Part shown: in pieces, positions 1,615-12,835 of the stretch
Numbering within the stretch: the stretch's first letter is position 1
Layout: every line of letters begins with the position of its first letter
Assembly: GCA_002387005.1 (NCBI GenBank)
Contig: DGKN01000070.1
Coordinates: 27,362-40,196 of the forward strand
Direction of reading: 5' to 3'
Length of the DNA: 12,835 nt
Source: Propionibacteriaceae bacterium UBA4569
Lineage (GTDB): Bacteria > Actinomycetota > Actinomycetes > Propionibacteriales > Propionibacteriaceae
The notes under the pieces: model-generated
The model's input: the letters and a program-made list of their open reading frames with translations, nothing else
Told to the model about the DNA's origin: nothing
Database searches by the model: none
Translations under genes and position numbers: made by a program

Positions 1615-2628
1615 GGGCTGCCGCGGGCTGGCCACCTCCTCCAACAGCTCGCGCACCCGGCGTCCGAAGACCTTCCGGGACACCAGCAGGGCATCGGGGA
1701 GCACGCGTCCGTCGAGGTTGCTGGCCAGCAGACCCGGCCAGTCGGCGTCGTCCCAGCTCTCCACCAGCGGGACGCCCAAGCGCTCGTGCAGCTGGCGGGC
1801 GAACACGAGTTGTTCGTCGTGGGGACGCATCTCCGGCGCGAGGACGACGGGCCGACGGGCGGCCGCGGCGGCGGCGATCGTGTTGTGGCCAGCCCCGCAG
1901 ACCACCACCTCGGCCCGTTGCAACCACTCGAGCGGGTTGGGCACCCAGCCGTGCAGGTGCAGGTTGTCGACCCCGGCCAGGGCGGGGATGTCCCCCGTTG
2001 GCCCCAGGACGTGCCACTGCCGGTGCGGGGTCTGTCGGGCGGCGCGCATCAGGTGGGCGAGGTCAACCCCTCGTCCGCCGGCCCCGGAGACGACGGTCAC
2101 CACGCCGGGTTCCGGCGCCACGTCGGGCAGGTGCGGGTGGTCGTCCGGCATGCCCAGCCATCGGGTCTTGTTGGCCCACGCGAACTCCGGTTGCTCGAGC
2201 TCGCGCGGGTAGTACGCGAACAACCGCTCCGACAGCGAATACGCCAGCTCGTGCGGTGGGTCGGTGCGATCGCCCGGCATCCGGCGGTGCAGGACGGGGT
2301 ACCCGGCGAGGTGGCAGAAGGTGGCCGCCTCCACCGACACGTCAACCATCACCAGGTCGGGGTCGACGTCGTCCAGCACTTGGTGCAGCGCACTGAACCT
2401 ACGCCTGACCTGAGCCGTGGTGGGGGTCCAGTGGAAGGGAGAACTCGACGGTTGCACGTGATCGTCACCCGGGACGACGTCCGGCGGCAGCTCGACGTCC
2501 GCGCCCCGGCCACCGACGACGACCACCTGCGCCACTCCGAGCGACGCCAGCCGGCGGGCATGGCGCAGGTGCCCGCTGCCATGGTGGTGGGCGTAGTAGA
2601 CGAGAGTGAGCGGAGCGGCCACCAGCAC
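1513..2628 (-). CDS. MurG-like GT-B glycosyltransferase
   Basis: The product is 371 residues from a GTG at 2628; a second GTG two codons later is an equally possible start. No strong Shine-Dalgarno is visible. The N-terminus has a glycine/histidine loop (YYAHHHGSGHLRHA, residues 11-24) comparable with the GT28/MurG acceptor loop that follows the first strand. The C-terminal half carries VVVCGAGHNTIAAAAAARRPVVLAP at about 241-265, then a PHDEQLVFARQL segment at 269-280, the usual nucleotide-sugar site of GT1/GT28 enzymes. It probably transfers a sugar from a UDP- or similar donor to a lipid or surface-glycan acceptor. The last 33 residues (339-371) lie opposite the end of the GT2 gene, beyond what the fold needs, so they may be an acquired extension after loss of an earlier stop. 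The pairing with two other GTs argues for a shared glycan pathway. I see no reason to call it MurG itself: no division-cluster neighbours are present. Confidence 0.88.
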   Translation of the reverse strand: MLVAAPLTLVYYAHHHGSGHLRHARRLASLGVAQVVVVGGRGADVELPPDVVPGDDHVQPSSSPFHWTPTTAQVRRRFSALHQVLDDVDPDLVMVDVSVEAATFCHLAGYPVLHRRMPGDRTDPPHELAYSLSERLFAYYPRELEQPEFAWANKTRWLGMPDDHPHLPDVAPEPGVVTVVSGAGGRGVDLAHLMRAARQTPHRQWHVLGPTGDIPALAGVDNLHLHGWVPNPLEWLQRAEVVVCGAGHNTIAAAAAARRPVVLAPEMRPHDEQLVFARQLHERLGVPLVESWDDADWPGLLASNLDGRVLPDALLVSRKVFGRRVRELLEEVASPRQPLETGIGNQRVGQLLGGGLAQQLKVVVAPGDQPA

Positions 2629-2730
2629 AGAATAGGAGCGAGGATGCCCGCTTTCCTAGCGCCAGAGGGGGGTGTTCGCGCGGTGGGGCTGGATCCCTGC
2701 ACCCGTGGCCTTTGCGGCCGATGCCTGGGA

Positions 2731-2736
2731 CATAAT
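2731..2736 (+). promoter_or_regulatory. Possible -10 box upstream of the small membrane-protein gene
   Basis: CATAAT matches the -10 consensus at five of six positions, within a 240-bp stretch between the MurG-like gene and the small ORF. No convincing -35 sits at 16-18 bp. Apart from this I see nothing certain in 2629-2868; the same frame as the small ORF is open from 2767 but without a ribosome site there. Confidence 0.25.
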
Positions 2737-2868
2737 GCCTAGCCGCGCCTAAGTTTGCAATACTAGATGAGCCTGAAGGACGGCTGTTGGCTGCCCCTGT
2801 TCGCACGGGTGGGCGCGCTGGTGGCACCTAGCCTGTTGGTACTCCCTCACCAGCTGAAAGGCGTTCCA

Positions 2869-3195
2869 ATGGCACACACCGTCCCGGGCGGACTTGGGGT
2901 GCTGTGCTGCGCCCTGACTGCCTGCTGGACGACGTCGTCCTCGGTGGCCGCGCTGCTTGGCGGCGAGGATGCACGAGCCGTGTGGTTCGCCGTGGCGAGT
3001 GCGCTGGCGATCTGGGGAGCCGGGCTGTGCTGGTTCTTGCTGGTGCGACCTGTGCGGGTGCTGGTCCGTCATCCCAAACCGTCGACCAATCTCACGGCCT
3101 CCTCAGCTGGCCTGCCGGTGCTGGCGACGTGCCCGTTGGCCGCGCAGGAAGCTGACAGCAGCGAAACCGAGCAGCGTTCGGTTCCCGCCGCCTGA
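2869..3195 (+). CDS. Small hypothetical membrane protein, two predicted spans
   Basis: The product is 108 residues from ATG 2869, chosen because AAAGG (2857-2861) lies seven bases upstream. An in-frame ATG at 2767 would add 34 residues but has no ribosome site. I recognise no family. Two hydrophobic stretches are visible, at about residues 7-30 (LGVLCCALTACW and onward) and about 36-63 (AVWFAVASALAIWGAG and onward), with a basic loop after the second (RPVRVLVRHPK) that would face the cytoplasm. The tail is hydrophilic and Ser/Thr-rich. Third codon positions are mostly G or C in the first two thirds, as in the surrounding real genes, which supports coding. It stands alone between the MurG-like gene and eamA. 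A non-coding interpretation remains possible. Confidence 0.5.
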   Translation: MAHTVPGGLGVLCCALTACWTTSSSVAALLGGEDARAVWFAVASALAIWGAGLCWFLLVRPVRVLVRHPKPSTNLTASSAGLPVLATCPLAAQEADSSETEQRSVPAA

Positions 3196-3380
3196 GTTTC
3201 GCTCTGCCCACGCGGGATGCCTGGGCTTGGGCGCCCCGGCCAGGTGCTCGGCCTCGGTGCCATTGGTGGGCGGTTGCCACGGTGTGCTGATGTCGGCAAC
3301 GCCATGGGACGCATGTCGCCCTGCCGTCGACTTCTGCGATGGTGGTCGGCGCGGGCTCCCTCCCGCGGAGACACCAGGAT

Positions 3381-3390: not shown

Positions 3391-4305
3391 ATGCCACGCA
3401 AGGACGTCGGCCTGGCCGCGTTGGTCATCTGCATCTGGGGCGTGAACTTCGTCTGCGCCAATCTTGCGATGGAGTCGCTGCCGCCGCTGTTCATGGCGGC
3501 GGTCCGGTTCACGCTCGTCGCCCTGCCCGCGGTCTTCTTCGTCAAGCCCCCGGCCGTCGGGTGGAAGCCCGTCGTCGCGTCCGGGCTGTGCATGGGAGCC
3601 GTGCAGTTCGGGTTGCTGTACACGGCCATGAACCTCGGACTGCCCGCCGGTCTCGCCTCCCTGGTGCTGCAGGTGCAGAGCCTGTTCACGGTGGCGCTGG
3701 CCGCTTTCATACTCGGAGAGCACCCTACGACGGTGCAGGTCTTCGGCATCCTGGTCGGGATCCTCGGGATGGGCGTGGTCGGCTGGCAGTACCTCGCGCA
3801 CGCACCCGTGCTGCCCTTCGCGCTGGCGGTGCTGGCCGCGCTCGGGTGGGCCGCCGGCAATATCGTCACCCGGCGCCACCCACCCCGCAGCGGGTTCTCC
3901 CTGGTGATCTGGTCGGCGCTGGTGCCACCGATCCCGTTGCTGCTCGGCTCGATGGTGCTGGAGGGCCCGATGGCCGGATTCCACGGCTTGGCGCACCTGA
4001 GCCTGCGCTCGGCGCTGGGCGTGGCCTTCGTGACCTATGGCGCCTCCATGGTCGGCTACGGCCTGTGGAACCTGCTGCTGAGCAGGCATTCGGCGGCCAC
4101 CGTCTCGCCCTGGTCGATGTTCGTCCCGGTGGTTGGAGCGATCACCGCCTGGTTCTACAACGGCGAGGTCCCCACCCCAATGGGCATTCTGGGCGCCGCC
4201 ATCACCGTCGCCGGCGTGCTGTTGGCCCTTGGGGTGGGAAACCGTCTGTTCGCCCGTGCCGACGTTCCCGACCCCGAACCAGTCACCGAGCCCCCCGGCC
4301 TGTGA
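3391..4305 (+). CDS. eamA: EamA-family (DMT superfamily) exporter, O-acetylserine/cysteine exporter type
   Basis: The product is 304 residues, the usual size for a ten-span drug/metabolite transporter made of two EamA repeats. From memory of the E. coli EamA (YdeD) sequence, several stretches match closely: WGVNFV near residue 16, AAVRFTLVALPAVFFV near 36-51, PAGLASLVLQVQSLFT near 85-100, GWAAGNI near 151, SLVIWSALVPPIPLL near 170, and VPVVG near 247. E. coli EamA exports cysteine and O-acetylserine, so export of thiol amino acids or related metabolites across the cytoplasmic membrane is a reasonable inference, though DMT substrates diverge widely. The frame is open upstream to 3217; the start was set by the ribosome site and by alignment with EamA. 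The C-terminal tail is short, acidic and proline-rich. It appears monocistronic. Confidence 0.9.
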   Translation: MPRKDVGLAALVICIWGVNFVCANLAMESLPPLFMAAVRFTLVALPAVFFVKPPAVGWKPVVASGLCMGAVQFGLLYTAMNLGLPAGLASLVLQVQSLFTVALAAFILGEHPTTVQVFGILVGILGMGVVGWQYLAHAPVLPFALAVLAALGWAAGNIVTRRHPPRSGFSLVIWSALVPPIPLLLGSMVLEGPMAGFHGLAHLSLRSALGVAFVTYGASMVGYGLWNLLLSRHSAATVSPWSMFVPVVGAITAWFYNGEVPTPMGILGAAITVAGVLLALGVGNRLFARADVPDPEPVTEPPGL

Positions 4306-4349
4306 GCGCCGGGCCCGGACGCGCCCCTTCCCGCCCGCCGATCCGCTGA

Positions 4350-4399
4350 GACGCCCAGACCCCCCTGTCTTCCCACCATCTCAGGTGCCCCTGGGCGTC
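4350..4399. repeat. 9-bp perfect inverted repeat between eamA and tetR
   Basis: GACGCCCAG (4350-4358) is matched by CTGGGCGTC (4391-4399) across a 32-base loop. It lies 44 bp after the eamA stop and ends 14 bp before the tetR -35 box. It could end the eamA transcript or bind a regulator. There is no T-tract, so it is not a textbook terminator. Confidence 0.45.
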
Positions 4400-4412
4400 A
4401 TCTCCGCCACCC

Positions 4413-4441
4413 TTGACATCGGCTGAACGCACGTTCAGACT
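4413..4441 (+). promoter_or_regulatory. Promoter of the tetR-ABC operon
   Basis: A perfect -35 box TTGACA (4413-4418) is followed after 17 bp by CAGACT (4436-4441), a 3-of-6 match to the -10 consensus. Transcription would then begin about seven bases on, at or next to the GTG at 4449, giving a leaderless mRNA. An ORF caller could take the TTG of this -35 box as a start codon, which I consider wrong. Confidence 0.55.
4423..4438. promoter_or_regulatory. TetR operator site 1
   Basis: CTGAACGCACGTTCAG is a palindrome with perfect 7-bp arms around a 2-bp centre. It lies between the -35 and -10 elements, so a bound dimer would block RNA polymerase. Size and symmetry are those of TetR-family operators. 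That the adjacent TetR binds it is inference from position. Confidence 0.75.
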
Positions 4442-4442
4442 A

Positions 4443-4458
4443 TTGAACGTGCGTTCAA
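4443..4458. promoter_or_regulatory. TetR operator site 2
   Basis: TTGAACGTGCGTTCAA is a second palindrome with 7-bp arms and a 2-bp centre. Its reverse complement differs from site 1 only in the two end bases. Its centre is 20 bp from that of site 1, about two helical turns, so two dimers would sit on the same face. It covers the presumed transcription start and the GTG start codon. Confidence 0.75.
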
Positions 4459-5120
4459 ACCCCGCCGACCTGACCACCGAGGCCCGCATCCGTGCCGCTG
4501 CCGTCGAGCTCTTCGGCGAGCAGGGCTTCCCGCACACAACGATCCGTCAGATCGCCGAGCGGGCAGGGGTTTCGGCGCCACTCGTGATGCACCACTTCGG
4601 GTCCAAGGACAAGCTGCGCGAGGCCTGCGACAACTGGGCGATGGAGGCCCTCTCGCAGGAGACCGCCTTCCTCTCCCTTGGCTCGATGCCCACCATGGAC
4701 ACCTACATCGAGCAGCACCCCGAGTACCGGACGCTGATGGCCTACCTCGTCTCGGGCCTTCGCGCCGGCGGCCCCACCGCCGACCGGATCTTCGACCGCC
4801 TGATGGAGACCTCCACCGAGATGGTCGACCAGGCCGTCGAGGCGGGCGTCATGCGCCTACCCGACGACCGGGAGGCCGCGGTCGCCTATCTGGTCGCCTC
4901 CTCCTGTGGAGTGATGCTGCTCGGTTCCCAGTTCAGCCGCCACCTCGGCGGCACCGCGCTGACAGACCACCAGGTCGTCCACCGCTACAGCGCCGCCACC
5001 ACCGATCTGCTCACCCACGGCGTCTTCACCGCCGAGTACCGCGACGCCCTGCTGGCCTCACTCGGGCAGGCCGATGAGCAAACCACCACCAGCACCATCA
5101 CGCAGGAAGAACGGAAATGA
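4449..5120 (+). CDS. TetR/AcrR-family transcriptional repressor of the adjacent ABC transporter
   Basis: The product is 223 residues from GTG 4449. The N-terminal TetR helix-turn-helix is clear at about residues 9-56: [16 protein letters not shown], then [27 protein letters not shown], including the H-F-x-S-K-D-K-L signature at the end of the domain. The rest is an all-helical ligand and dimerisation domain without recognisable identity. I prefer GTG 4449 to the in-frame TTG at 4413 because the latter is the -35 box and because residue 1 then falls eight residues before the first HTH helix. A TTG at 4443 is also possible. Its stop overlaps the ABC ATPase start by 4 bp (ATGA). Genes of this layout usually repress their own operon until the exported compound, or a related ligand, releases the protein. 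Confidence 0.92.
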
Positions 5121-6010
5121 CCCAGAACGCGATCGAGGTCCATGGCCTCGTCAAGACTTTCGGACCCACCCGCGCGCTGGACGGGTTGACGATGCAGGTC
5201 GCCACCGGTCAGGTGCACGGCTTCCTCGGGCCCAATGGCTCGGGCAAGTCCACCGCCATCCGGGTGTTGCTGGGCCTGTTGCGGGCCGACTCCGGCACCG
5301 CGTCCCTGCTCGGTGGCGACCCCTGGGCCGACGCGCCCAGCCTGCACCGCAGGTTGGCCTATGTTCCCGGCGACGTGAACCTGTGGCCGAACCTGACCGG
5401 CGGCGAGGCGATCGACGTGCTCGGACGCTCCCGCGGTGGCCTCAACCCCACCCGCCGCGCCGAACTGATCGACAAGTTCGACCTCGACCCGCGCAAGAAG
5501 GGCCGCACCTACTCCAAGGGCAACCGGCAGAAGGTCGCCCTGGTCGCCGCGCTCGCGTCCGACGTCGAACTGTTGTTGCTGGACGAACCCACCAGCGGCC
5601 TGGACCCCCTGATGGAGCGGATCTTCACCGACGAGATCCTCGCCGACAAGGCCCGCGGACGCACCGTGCTGCTCAGCTCACACATCCTGTCGGAGGTTGA
5701 GAAGCTGTGTGACCACGTCAGCCTGATCCGCGCCGGACGCATCATCGAGACCGGGACGCTGAGCGACCTGCGCCACCTCCACCGACTGGACATCACCGCC
5801 GATCTCGACCGTCTTCCCGCCGAGGACCTGCACCACCTGCCCGGCGTCCACGACCTGGCGATCACCGGCAACACGCTGTCCGCGCACGTCGACGCCGATG
5901 ACCTGAACGGACTGCTGGCGGCGCTGACCAGCTGCGGAGTGCGCTCGCTGACGTCCACCCCGCCATCGCTGGAAGAGCTCTTCCTCTCCCACTACGAGGG
6001 GACGAAGTGA
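5117..6010 (+). CDS. ABC transporter ATP-binding protein (drug/antibiotic export type)
   Basis: The product is 297 residues. Walker A is GPNGSGKST at 38-46, the signature loop is YSKGNRQK at 132-139, Walker B is LLLLDEP at 152-158, the D-loop SGLD at 160-163 and the H-loop His at 189. The Q-loop position reads VPGDV (83-87), with Gly in place of the usual Gln; from memory, some actinobacterial exporter ATPases have this too. The C-terminal 80 residues form the regulatory extension common in DrrA-like export ATPases. It hydrolyses ATP at the inner face of the membrane to drive the permease encoded next. Translation is probably coupled: ATGA overlap with tetR upstream and TGATG junction with the permease downstream. 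Confidence 0.95.
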
Positions 6011-10542: not shown

Positions 10543-10664
10543 GCGGCAGGGAAGTAGGCGTACGGCCGCGCGCGTCCATCAGAATTGACCAAGAAGAAGA
10601 GGCACGTGGCACCTCCGCTCCACTCACCAAATAGAAGGCCACCCTTGCTCAGCCCAACGCCAAT
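10543..10664 (-). pseudogene. Remnant of the immunity-like gene (C-terminal part only)
   Basis: On the minus strand, 122 bases encode IIGVGLSKGGLLFGEWSGG onward to NSDGRARPYAYFPAA, matching residues 89-129 of the membrane protein at 11328-11792 with no gaps. An in-frame TGA precedes it after five bases, there is no start, and the frame runs on without homology into the antisense of the HTH gene. It is a fragment left by duplication and deletion, not an active gene. Its left edge lies 16 bp after the HTH gene's stop. Confidence 0.85.
10543..10664. repeat. Direct repeat, copy 1 (122 bp)
   Basis: It aligns without gaps to 11407-11528; by hand count 109 of 122 bases agree (89%). Both copies have the same orientation and are 742 bp apart, flanking the broken lipoprotein gene. 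Confidence 0.9.
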
Positions 10665-10704: not shown

Positions 10705-11200
10705 TCATCGAGAAGAACACCCATATTCGCCGAGGTCTAGCTTCGCCAAGGAATCATACTGGACAACCTCCTCTACAAGCACTGCCTGCCCGTCCTCCAT
10801 ATGAGACGGTACCTCAACCCAAATTTCGCTGCCGTTTTCGGCCACGCCAGTAACCAAGCGTCCTGCAACGGAGAATCCTGCTTGAATGCCTGGGGCGAAT
10901 TTGACACGGACACCGGCCGTCGATCGTCCTGGGAGTTCTGCGGGATTCACGCCCGTCAGATAGTCATACTGCGCCAGTATGGAATCCGTCGGCGTGCCGC
11001 CCGAGTCAATCGATCTTACTTCCATCCTCCTAAAGGCATCTTCACGGCATACGGAGCCAGCGATCCAAACGCCACCCCCTCAGGGCGACGAACCCGGGAG
11101 AGTAGGGGCGTGAGGGGGCGCATGACGCAACGAGCAGCGACCATGCCGCGAACAACAGGAGTTTCGTAAGGCGGTGACGTTCCGCAATTTCAGCTAACAT
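10705..11200 (-). pseudogene. Lipoprotein gene broken by a one-base insertion at a C5 run
   Basis: On the minus strand an ATG at 11200, with GGAAG seven bases upstream, starts MLAEIAERHRLTK, then a hydrophobic stretch LLLFAAWSLL and the lipobox VAS-C (Cys27), a typical lipoprotein signal. This frame dies at a TGA about 53 codons in. From the G5 run of the coding strand (11075-11079 on +), the +1 frame continues as VWIAGSVCREDAFRRMEVRS and runs to the stop at 10705. Removing one G joins them into about 164 residues. The alternative start inside the second frame (ATG 11025) has AGGAGG directly abutting it, with no spacer, so it is a poor start. The mature protein would be a surface-anchored beta-rich domain of unknown family. 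It follows the toxin and its candidate immunity gene, so it may be a second immunity or accessory protein. A phase-variable gene or sequencing error is also possible. Confidence 0.7.
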
Positions 11201-11327: not shown

Positions 11328-11792
11328 TCACTGGACTTCTTTAACCTGCAGCAGTCGACAGACGTTCCACAATTGTCTATTCAGTTCCTCAGATCTGGAG
11401 AAGGCTGCAGCGGGCAAGTAGGCATACCGCCGCGCGCGCCCATCAGAATTGACCAAGAAGAAGAGGCACGTAGCGCCCCCGCTCCACTCACCAAATAGAA
11501 GCCCACCCTTACCCAGTCCAACGCCAATGACGTCATCCGCATCGAACGATACCTTTCCAAGGGGTCGGGGTACCTCTATCTGCCTCGTCACCCCATCGAA
11601 CTTCACAGCTCCGAGCGACAGGTATCGGAGGCCGGTGCAAGCAAAGAAGACCCCTAGGGAAGCGACGGCGACTGCCGACTTCCCGCTCATGTCTGTCGCG
11701 GCCAGTATCGCAACCAAGGAATACATTCCAAACGACAGGGGCGATGCCACTCGGAAGTACCGCGTTGGCCGCGCGATAGTTTGCCGGCTCAC
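11328..11792 (-). CDS. Two-span membrane protein, candidate immunity protein of the Rhs toxin
   Basis: The product is 154 residues from GTG 11792. The frame is open 222 bases further upstream, but that part lies inside the toxin gene. The GTG overlaps the toxin stop as GTGA, the usual sign of translational coupling, so I chose it. Two hydrophobic stretches, about residues 18-33 and 38-62, form a membrane hairpin. The remaining 90 residues look soluble and beta-rich: VKFDGVTRQIEVPRPLG, SFDADDVIGVGLGKGG, and CLFFLVNSDGRARRYAYLP, a pattern I associate with bacterial PH-like domains (inference). I do not recognise a named family. The gene order, toxin then small protein in the same direction, and the presence of a decayed copy downstream are typical of polymorphic-toxin immunity genes. 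Base composition is poorer in GC than the core genes. Confidence 0.75.
   Translation of the reverse strand: MSRQTIARPTRYFRVASPLSFGMYSLVAILAATDMSGKSAVAVASLGVFFACTGLRYLSLGAVKFDGVTRQIEVPRPLGKVSFDADDVIGVGLGKGGLLFGEWSGGATCLFFLVNSDGRARRYAYLPAAAFSRSEELNRQLWNVCRLLQVKEVQ
11407..11528. repeat. Direct repeat, copy 2 (122 bp, inside the immunity-like gene)
   Basis: This copy is the intact coding version, residues 89-129 of the immunity-like protein. Copy 1 is at 10543-10664 in the same orientation. Confidence 0.9.
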
Positions 11793-12835
11793 CACGCAGA
11801 ATACCGATGAGTCGAAACGTAGGCGGCGCCTGTATACATGCCGATATGGACGTTCATTCCCCACCGGACCGATCGTGGAATGTACGACCCTGCTCGTCGA
11901 CGATGTCTCCAGGTAGCGGCGTACTTTCCACCTCGTCGCGCATAATGCCCGCCGCCATATCTGTAGACGCGCTCCATCACACGACCGCCAACACGTCCGG
12001 GCAGGACACCCCATGCAAATGTGCTGCCTGCTTCCCTCCAGCGACGCTGCCTAGCATAGGCGCCCATGTATATGCCTGTACACGCATAACCCACAGGACC
12101 CCACGCGAACGAGCACACGGTGTTGATCCGCTTTCCCCACTTTGAGTCTGTTAGCCAGCGAGAAGCACTGAGAGATCCTCTAGAAACGGACCGACCAACT
12201 GACCGTCCCCAGCTCTTCACCTTCCCCCACCATTTGTTCCCGTCGATGTCCCGCATGTTGATGGGATCGTTTGGGTACCCGTAGGCAGTGTCGCCCCCTT
12301 GGTACTCGGGATCCAAAGATGTGAACAGTCCAGTGGTTTGGTTGTAGAGGCGGGCGCCCATGAGGGTGATGCCGAGGGCGTCGAGGGTGGCGCGTTCGTG
12401 TTGTCCGAGCCATCCGTAGCCGGCTCCTGCCGTCCCGCCGGTGTTGGTGGTGGCGGGTTGGGTGGGTTGGCCGTATTCGGTCCAGTCTTGCCAGGCGTCG
12501 ATCCCGCTGGCGGGGTTGGTGCCCTCCAGGGTGATGGTGGCGTTGATGTCCCCCCGCAGCCCGGCCAGAGCCAGCTCGGCGGTGGTGGCACCGCTGGTGG
12601 TGGTGTAGGTGATGCCGAGCCCGTCACCGGTCAACGACCCGAACCTGGTGGTCGTTGCGACACCTTCACGGGTGTCGACGGTCCAGGCTGGGTTGTCCGA
12701 CGCGTCGGTGTAGTGCCGCACCACGGTCCCGGCCACGGCACCGGGCACGACCACGGGGCCGACGGTGGCGTCCTGCACCAACCGGCGACCAGCACCATCC
12801 AGGGTGAACGTGGCCCGCACGTCGCCCTGGCTGAT
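11789..12835 (-). CDS. Rhs/YD-repeat polymorphic toxin, C-terminal part (N-terminus beyond the right edge)
   Basis: The minus-strand frame is open from the right edge; 348 residues are visible. Residues 1-140 are YD-repeat-like (TFTLDGAGRRLVQD and onward). The RHS-associated core follows: YGWLGQHERATL near 140-151, MGARLYNQTTGLFTSLDP at 159-176, and AYGYPNDPINMRDIDG at 184-199. Rhs proteins are large secreted or surface shells that release a toxic C-terminal tip into neighbouring cells. The tip here is residues 200-348 (bases 11789-12238). It has about 28 Lys/Arg against 3 Asp/Glu, is rich in Gly, Trp and Tyr, and contains a hydrophobic run near 238-260 (SFAWGPVGYACTGIYMGAY). I recognise no catalytic motif. 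Codon composition falls in GC exactly from the tip on. The stop overlaps the next gene as GTGA. The core is certain, the activity of the tip unknown. Confidence 0.92.
   Translation of the reverse strand: MSQGDVRATFTLDGAGRRLVQDATVGPVVVPGAVAGTVVRHYTDASDNPAWTVDTREGVATTTRFGSLTGDGLGITYTTTSGATTAELALAGLRGDINATITLEGTNPASGIDAWQDWTEYGQPTQPATTNTGGTAGAGYGWLGQHERATLDALGITLMGARLYNQTTGLFTSLDPEYQGGDTAYGYPNDPINMRDIDGNKWWGKVKSWGRSVGRSVSRGSLSASRWLTDSKWGKRINTVCSFAWGPVGYACTGIYMGAYARQRRWREAGSTFAWGVLPGRVGGRVMERVYRYGGGHYARRGGKYAATWRHRRRAGSYIPRSVRWGMNVHIGMYTGAAYVSTHRYSAW

Follow-up and report, generated by a model that had tools for sequence, protein, structure and literature searches.

Several described toxins that act on membranes bear comparison with the locus analysed here. 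One is Tse5-CT of Pseudomonas aeruginosa, described as a pore-forming Rhs tip that is delivered by the T6SS (PMC9637101). Glycine zippers, described as extended, are reported for EsxX and TelE, the zipper pattern being given as (G/A/S)xxxGxxxG or GxxxGxxx(G/S/T) (PMC12744356). CDI ionophores are described as consisting of an entry part and an ionophore part, with a predicted five-helix bundle, and their CdiI partners as typically sharing no more than about 30% identity within a group (PMC11630599). The N-terminal glycine zipper of Tde1, a GxxxG segment, is reported to permeabilise the target membrane (PMC10240207). A 2012 survey of polymorphic toxins mentions one domain that forms pores, W-TIP, which at the time was confined to proteobacteria (PMC3482391). 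For Actinobacteria, we found no description of such tips in open-licence PubMed Central, among the matches listed.

We analysed a stretch of 12,835 nucleotides (the window; G000:C29:27362-40196) from an incomplete genome of 2.58 Mb in 263 contigs, with a completeness of 79%. It contains the C-terminal part of an Rhs gene and an adjoining small gene (Table 1). We propose, with a probability of roughly 0.55, that the Rhs tip is an enzyme-free, membrane-depolarising toxin like Tse5 or EsxX/TelE, and that the small gene encodes its membrane immunity protein. At the level of sequence, the tip, its partner, the linkage between the two, a family of related tips and a set of conserved residues are established.

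Table 1. Features of the Rhs locus in the window (tip residues are counted from the first residue after DIDG)
Feature	Coordinates	Strand	Basis
Rhs/WapA-like protein, C-terminal 348 residues	11789..12835	-	open frame, TIGR03696 core, relatives in frames of 2182-2397 codons
Rhs core aspartates D175 and D196 of the fragment (DPEY..DIDG), expected self-cleavage device	12248..12313	-	alignment of three proteins
Rhs tip, 149 residues, proposed membrane-active toxin	11792..12238	-	ORF, charge, family searches
Tip residues 1-41, cationic stretch	12116..12238	-	net charge +9; best 18-residue hydrophobic moment of the tip, 0.68
Tip residues 42-53, Cys-x10-Cys segment (CSFAWGPVGYAC)	12080..12115	-	C42, G50 and C53 invariant in six members
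Tip residues 77-85, glycine zipper GVLPGRVGG	11984..12010	-	G77 and G81 invariant in six members
Tip residues 86-149, variable basic aromatic tail	11792..11983	-	pairwise identity 0.14-0.16 from about residue 102
Membrane immunity protein (proposed), 154 residues	11328..11792	-	GTG start overlaps tip stop; hydrophobic N-terminal part
Immunity gene 3' part, truncated second copy (displaced module remnant)	10543..10664	-	89% identity over 122 nt to 11407-11528

The Rhs fragment and its surroundings

The frame of the Rhs gene is open to the window end, which is the end of contig C29 (40196), and the N-terminal part of the protein lies beyond it. The visible part is built like an Rhs/WapA protein, with an RHS/YD core, a terminal DP..D..G motif and then a variable tip. 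The core scores E 9.6e-8 with TIGR03696 (32.4 bits, just under the cut-off of 32.5) and can be aligned with the cores of relatives in Luteococcus japonicus and Kribbella. Luteococcus is a genus of Propionibacteriaceae. Two aspartates, D175 and D196, are invariant in the three aligned proteins; they may serve self-cleavage, which is predicted to occur just after DIDG. The autocleavage motif described for comparison is DPXGX18DPXG, with D1141 and D1164 in Tse5, and the window motif departs from this consensus (PMC10684867). In the Kribbella relative, the N-terminus is strongly hydrophobic and resembles a signal sequence (15-residue window of 2.77); at the N-terminus of the L. japonicus relative no 15-residue window exceeds 1.9, and it is signal-like by eye alone. 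A second Rhs core in the window genome (L008, G000:C36:6918-7321) is frame-broken, with runs of N nearby, and is followed by a different basic tail.

Base composition changes at the core-tip junction: GC and GC3 are 0.677 and 0.834 in the core, 0.582 and 0.564 in the tip, and 0.581 and 0.645 in the immunity gene. Such a shift fits an exchanged module, as do the adjacent immunity gene, the displaced immunity fragment and the fragments found in L. japonicus. Nine of the 12 codons that differ between the truncated copy and the immunity gene are changed synonymously, and the copy contains an internal TGA. Between the two lies a low-GC ORF of 106 residues (10705-11025, minus strand; MEVRSIDSGG...), which had no match in Pfam, PHROGs or PADLOC and is perhaps another displaced remnant. 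In L. japonicus (L006, G088), displaced core-plus-tip fragments are found behind the main Rhs gene at 307-1968 and 3907-5688, each with a different basic tip containing a hydrophobic helix and with a membrane protein behind; the stretch between them (1969-3336) appears by eye to encode a transposase.

The locus might also be read as a decaying Rhs island with a non-functional tip, given that the immunity fragment at 10543-10664 is broken, that the second core on contig C36 of the same genome has lost its frame, and that the N-terminal part of the window Rhs gene is absent from the contig. We consider this very improbable. The frames of tip and partner are intact and overlap by four bases, the tip retains all five residues that are invariant in its family, and truncated copies displaced downstream are described at Rhs/WapA loci (PMC12704120).

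The tip and its family

Following DPINMRDIDG are 149 residues with a net charge of +25 and many Arg, Trp and Tyr, as the earlier note on this DNA, whose coordinates also hold, had stated. That note called the tip extremely basic and counted the charge among its hints of novelty and of membrane action or nucleic-acid binding. We compared it with other Rhs tips of the lineage, which came from searches with the core in 198 genomes of the taxonomic family (28 matching) and 391 genomes of the order (87 matching). Thirty loci were taken from each and joined by three further loci; from these 63, 21 failed the cohort rule and nine were repeats, leaving 33 distinct tips, with one tip kept at multi-tip loci. 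Nine tips that had failed the rule were viewed under looser rules and the other 12 were left out. Net charge in the cohort ranges from +14 to +35 with a median of +25, and the window tip ranks 16 (ties counted). GIY-YIG-like tips carry +27 to +30; the tip of L029, which lies outside the cohort, carries +9. The number in the earlier note is thus right, but it is ordinary for the lineage. High charge being common, we see no support for it as a sign of novelty or of nucleic-acid binding, and we dropped it as a key feature.

A toxin that binds DNA or RNA through its positive charge and kills by sequestration would be in keeping with the net charge and the wealth of Arg, Trp and Tyr. This is highly improbable in our view: the Rhs tips of the lineage are in general similarly charged, the residues invariant in the family are Cys and Gly rather than Arg or aromatic, and the partner is a membrane protein.

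No significant match to the tip was found in Pfam, NCBIfam, PHROGs, PADLOC or the PDB, in line with the earlier observation that it lacks a recognised toxin domain. The sole Pfam match (0.29) is at chance level; neither Pfam nor NCBIfam profiles detected a toxin domain, and the enzymatic classes GIY-YIG, HNH and Ntox were unmatched. The tip of L012, by comparison, scored E 1e-8 with GIY-YIG in the same Pfam search. A profile of the tip retrieved nothing among PDB chains at E ≤ 1. Searching a large protein database, length-filtered and hence excluding full-length Rhs proteins, with the bare tip gave 44 candidates, none at E ≤ 1; a second query, the tip portion of the complete L. japonicus frame, retrieved a single protein, the one it was taken from. 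Plasmid and phage collections held no match. The AlphaFold model of the tip is poor (pLDDT 44.7).

The single hydrophobic run that had been pointed out before is present but weak, its best 19-residue Kyte-Doolittle mean being 0.95. By our rule for a membrane helix (best 19-residue mean of at least 1.6, a value of our choosing), the window tip has no classical membrane helix and only one of six family tips has one, which counts against the membrane reading. The glycine zipper of the window tip, G77-G81-G85, satisfies the published pattern.

With the tip alone as query, three of the 198 family genomes matched: its own, L. japonicus G088 (E 3.5e-20, 47% identity, 2281-codon Rhs frame), which belongs to the same genus as the window, and G015 (E 1.4e-5, 30% identity over 86 residues, 2182-codon frame). 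L018 (G014) joined from the cohort (E 1.2e-4 among 13 tips) and is a weak member, as is L083. At E ≤ 0.01, 11 of the 391 order genomes matched a profile that had been built from these four tips, the convincing new matches being the Kribbella-type G235 (2.4e-15) and G302 (8.2e-7). Kribbella sandramycini (L059) has exactly the same tip as G235, and this tip aligns to that of the window with 34-40% identity. A six-member profile matched eight of 394 class genomes at E ≤ 0.001, with G766 (2.8e-18) as the top new match. Six profile matches (L045, L046, L048, L091, L096, L097) were set aside by eye as other proteins; this sorting left out L047 and kept L044, which has the L027 tip, in another group. 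Family tips terminate long Rhs frames in L. japonicus, Kribbella and other Actinobacteria. In two genomes (L094 in G538, L095 in G729) near-identical family tips are each followed by a two-helix protein of 350-362 residues; the other family partners are smaller.

Only C42, G50, C53, G77 and G81 are invariant in the six-member alignment, which includes the window. GxxxGxxxG occurs in five of the six members and in six of the 27 other tips; shuffling gives a mean of 1.61, and 0.25% of 2000 shuffles reach five. The looser zipper pattern is no more frequent than in shuffles (0.29). Among the eight class-level loci besides the window, five have the Cys pair, and four of these also have GxxxGxxx(G/A/S), which is absent in L090.

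Mean pairwise identity in the window group is highest in the block containing the Cys segment (0.37) and lowest towards the C-terminus (Table 1); by halves, it is 0.25 (N) and 0.19 (C). In this comparison, for which we chose groups that are unequal in divergence and added L012, L015 and L074 by hand, three other groups with membrane-protein neighbours behave similarly (N half 0.29-0.41, C half 0.19-0.26). The GIY-YIG-like tips are better conserved in the C half, on the enzyme side (0.62 versus 0.44 in the N half). The HxH group has 0.54 in the N half and 0.44 in the C half, yet contains a C-terminal block of 0.60.

These values bear on the main alternative, in which the Cys and zipper segment is an entry device only, the tail is a fast-evolving cytosolic toxin such as a nuclease or a translation inhibitor, and the immunity protein blocks entry. 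Hydrophobic segments do stand ahead of GIY-YIG domains (L012 by Pfam; L022 and L075 are similar), ahead of tips that by eye are of the HxH type and, also by eye, as a hairpin ahead of HINT and nuclease domains in L091. Cys-paired hydrophobic segments likewise precede tips that look nuclease-like by eye, L011 and L017 among them with GxxxGxxxG. The DNase Tde1 is reported to need a GxxxG motif if it is to be delivered into its target cells (PMC10240207), and the tail of the window tip has a net charge of +10 and four histidines. On the other hand, an enzyme hidden there should show up as a conserved block, and the six members, a small and divergent sample, have none. Given that the N half of the HxH group is also the better conserved one, it is the GIY-YIG-like group and the block values that carry this argument, and we graded the membrane-depolarising reading slightly lower, and entry with a cytosolic toxin slightly higher, for this reason. 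Together with the neighbours described below, we judge the latter possible but doubtful.

L011, L017 and L074 combine a Cys-containing hydrophobic hairpin with a conserved His-rich block (perhaps a nuclease, by eye), and their neighbours lack a membrane helix.

The adjoining gene and the neighbours of other tips

The GTG start of the partner overlaps the TGA stop of the tip by four bases (GTGA). The best 19-residue stretch of the partner scores 1.64, narrowly above our threshold and in line with the membrane protein noted earlier beside the tip. Its AlphaFold model is poor (pLDDT 41.0), with two helices, five strands and a helix, and Pfam found nothing in it. A PH-like domain, suggested by eye and by this model, was considered and rejected; Pfam was empty, the PDB matches were mainly to designed proteins over short stretches, and few partners beat the decoys in the jackknife described below. 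A homologue, P0002, with 24-27% identity is present in Acidipropionibacterium thoenii. Judging from the overlap, the truncated copy and this homologue, 11328-11792 looks like a real gene. In A. thoenii (L050, G004), P0002 (1378-1902) lies beside an ORF (2072-2890) that by eye resembles the neighbour of the L024 tip. No Rhs core was found in the 3.4 kb of L050 covered here, a stretch that is possibly an immunity island.

A membrane protein is encoded next to all six family members of the cohort, versus 13 of 26 other tips (one-sided Fisher 0.030); one further cohort tip had no neighbour, and the better of two candidate ORFs was counted. At L071 only the second candidate is a membrane protein. 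The counts vary little with threshold: six and 14 at 1.4, five and 13 at 1.8, five and 11 at 2.0. All five class-level loci with the Cys pair also have a membrane protein next, L094 and L095 being near-identical and the ORF at L090 beginning 133 bases past the stop, just outside the 130-base rule. This brings the total to 11 of 11 family loci. Of the three class-level loci without the Cys pair, two have neighbours lacking a membrane helix, and at the third, L096, the sequence goes no further than the stop. Among the nine tips viewed under looser rules, a membrane neighbour is present at L014, L015, L029 and L072 and absent at L012, L016, L038 and L074; L067 has no neighbour.

More generally, tips with two cysteines spaced as C-x5-12-C within their first 75 residues have a membrane neighbour in 16 of 19 cases, compared with three of 13 without the pair (p 0.0009, for a pattern picked after viewing the data and sequences that are not independent). 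No membrane helix is seen in the neighbours of L012, whose GIY-YIG domain is confirmed by Pfam, of the similar tips L022 and L075, or of three HxH tips. Set against the 11 family loci, these six argue against a cytosolic toxin in the tail of the window tip.

The partners do not form a single family. Those of L059, L092 and L093 are mutually homologous and form a separate family, the window partner is homologous to P0002, and most others are without demonstrable homology. A jackknife against 200 decoys left only P0002 (for which the window was in the training set) and L028 ahead of every decoy; for L037, 5 of the 200 were as good, for the window 17, and for the other five between 46 and 122. 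That different partners share one compartment suggests that the membrane is the place where the tip must be met.

Proposed mechanism and comparison with known systems

Taken together, the relatives, the Cys pair, the glycine zipper and the membrane neighbours lend weight to the earlier guess of a membrane-acting toxin. In the mechanism that we propose, a Luteococcus-type actinobacterium would export a WapA-like Rhs protein that carries the tip as its C-terminal effector and frees it at D175/D196. The target would be the cytoplasmic membrane of a neighbouring bacterium, with no enzyme involved: the cationic amphipathic leader would bind the envelope, and the Cys-x10-Cys and glycine-zipper segments would insert and self-associate into an ion-leaking assembly. 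In the owner, the 11328-11792 product, residing in the membrane, would block this action. Export and cleavage in this organism, toxicity, depolarisation and neutralisation are all predictions of the model.

A more far-reaching idea, which we consider unlikely, is that actinobacterial Rhs proteins have a common entry hairpin and that here the enzyme was lost, so that the hairpin itself became the weapon. The cysteines would then stabilise or switch it, through a disulphide that would form extracellularly and might open at the target, and unrelated membrane immunity proteins would have evolved against it.

If a membrane-depolarising tip is the right reading, its mode of action is already known, while the family, its Cys-zipper signature and the actinobacterial Rhs setting are undescribed in the literature searched. 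The earlier suggestion of a tip not covered by known Rhs-CT classes therefore holds for the sequence family but not for the likely mode of action; novelty is limited to the former because membrane-acting Rhs tips, namely Tse5, are known. Enzyme-free membrane attack would, if this is true, also be open to exported Rhs proteins of Gram-positive bacteria, and the family supplies about ten toxin-immunity pairs from nature as well as five invariant positions.

Like the CDI ionophores, the window protein would have a membrane-depolarising C-terminal tip and divergent immunity partners (PMC11630599). Unlike it, they are delivered by CdiA in Gram-negative bacteria and have a predicted five-helix bundle, of which the poor window model (44.7) shows nothing. 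A GxxxG segment is shared with Tde1, but Tde1 is a DNase effector and no such domain was recognised in the window tip. EsxX, TelE and TspA resemble the proposed window system in that they are Gram-positive toxins, contain a glycine zipper and are paired with immunity proteins of the membrane (ExiCD, TsaI); EsxX, in addition, is described as having no Pfam domain beyond LXG and as having orphan immunity genes in islands (PMC12744356). These toxins differ from the window tip in using LXG/T7SS delivery rather than an Rhs protein. Neither the Kribbella nor the L. japonicus relative, both of full length, has a listed LXG domain, and the N-terminus of the window protein lies beyond the contig end. 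The window tip has one GxxxGxxxG, as opposed to the extended zippers of EsxX and TelE, and a Cys-x10-Cys segment, which the passages of PMC12744356 drawn on here do not mention for EsxX, TelE or TspA.

Tse5 differs in being T6SS-delivered in a Gram-negative bacterium (PMC9637101), and our comparison with it is drawn from descriptions, the profile of the tip having no PDB match at E ≤ 1. By these descriptions, Tse5-CT likewise forms the C-terminal end of an Rhs protein, has a comparable size (about 16 kDa) and follows a core with a conserved aspartate pair (PMC10684867), and its immunity protein Tsi5 is membrane-bound (PMC12744356), as we propose for the partner of the window tip.
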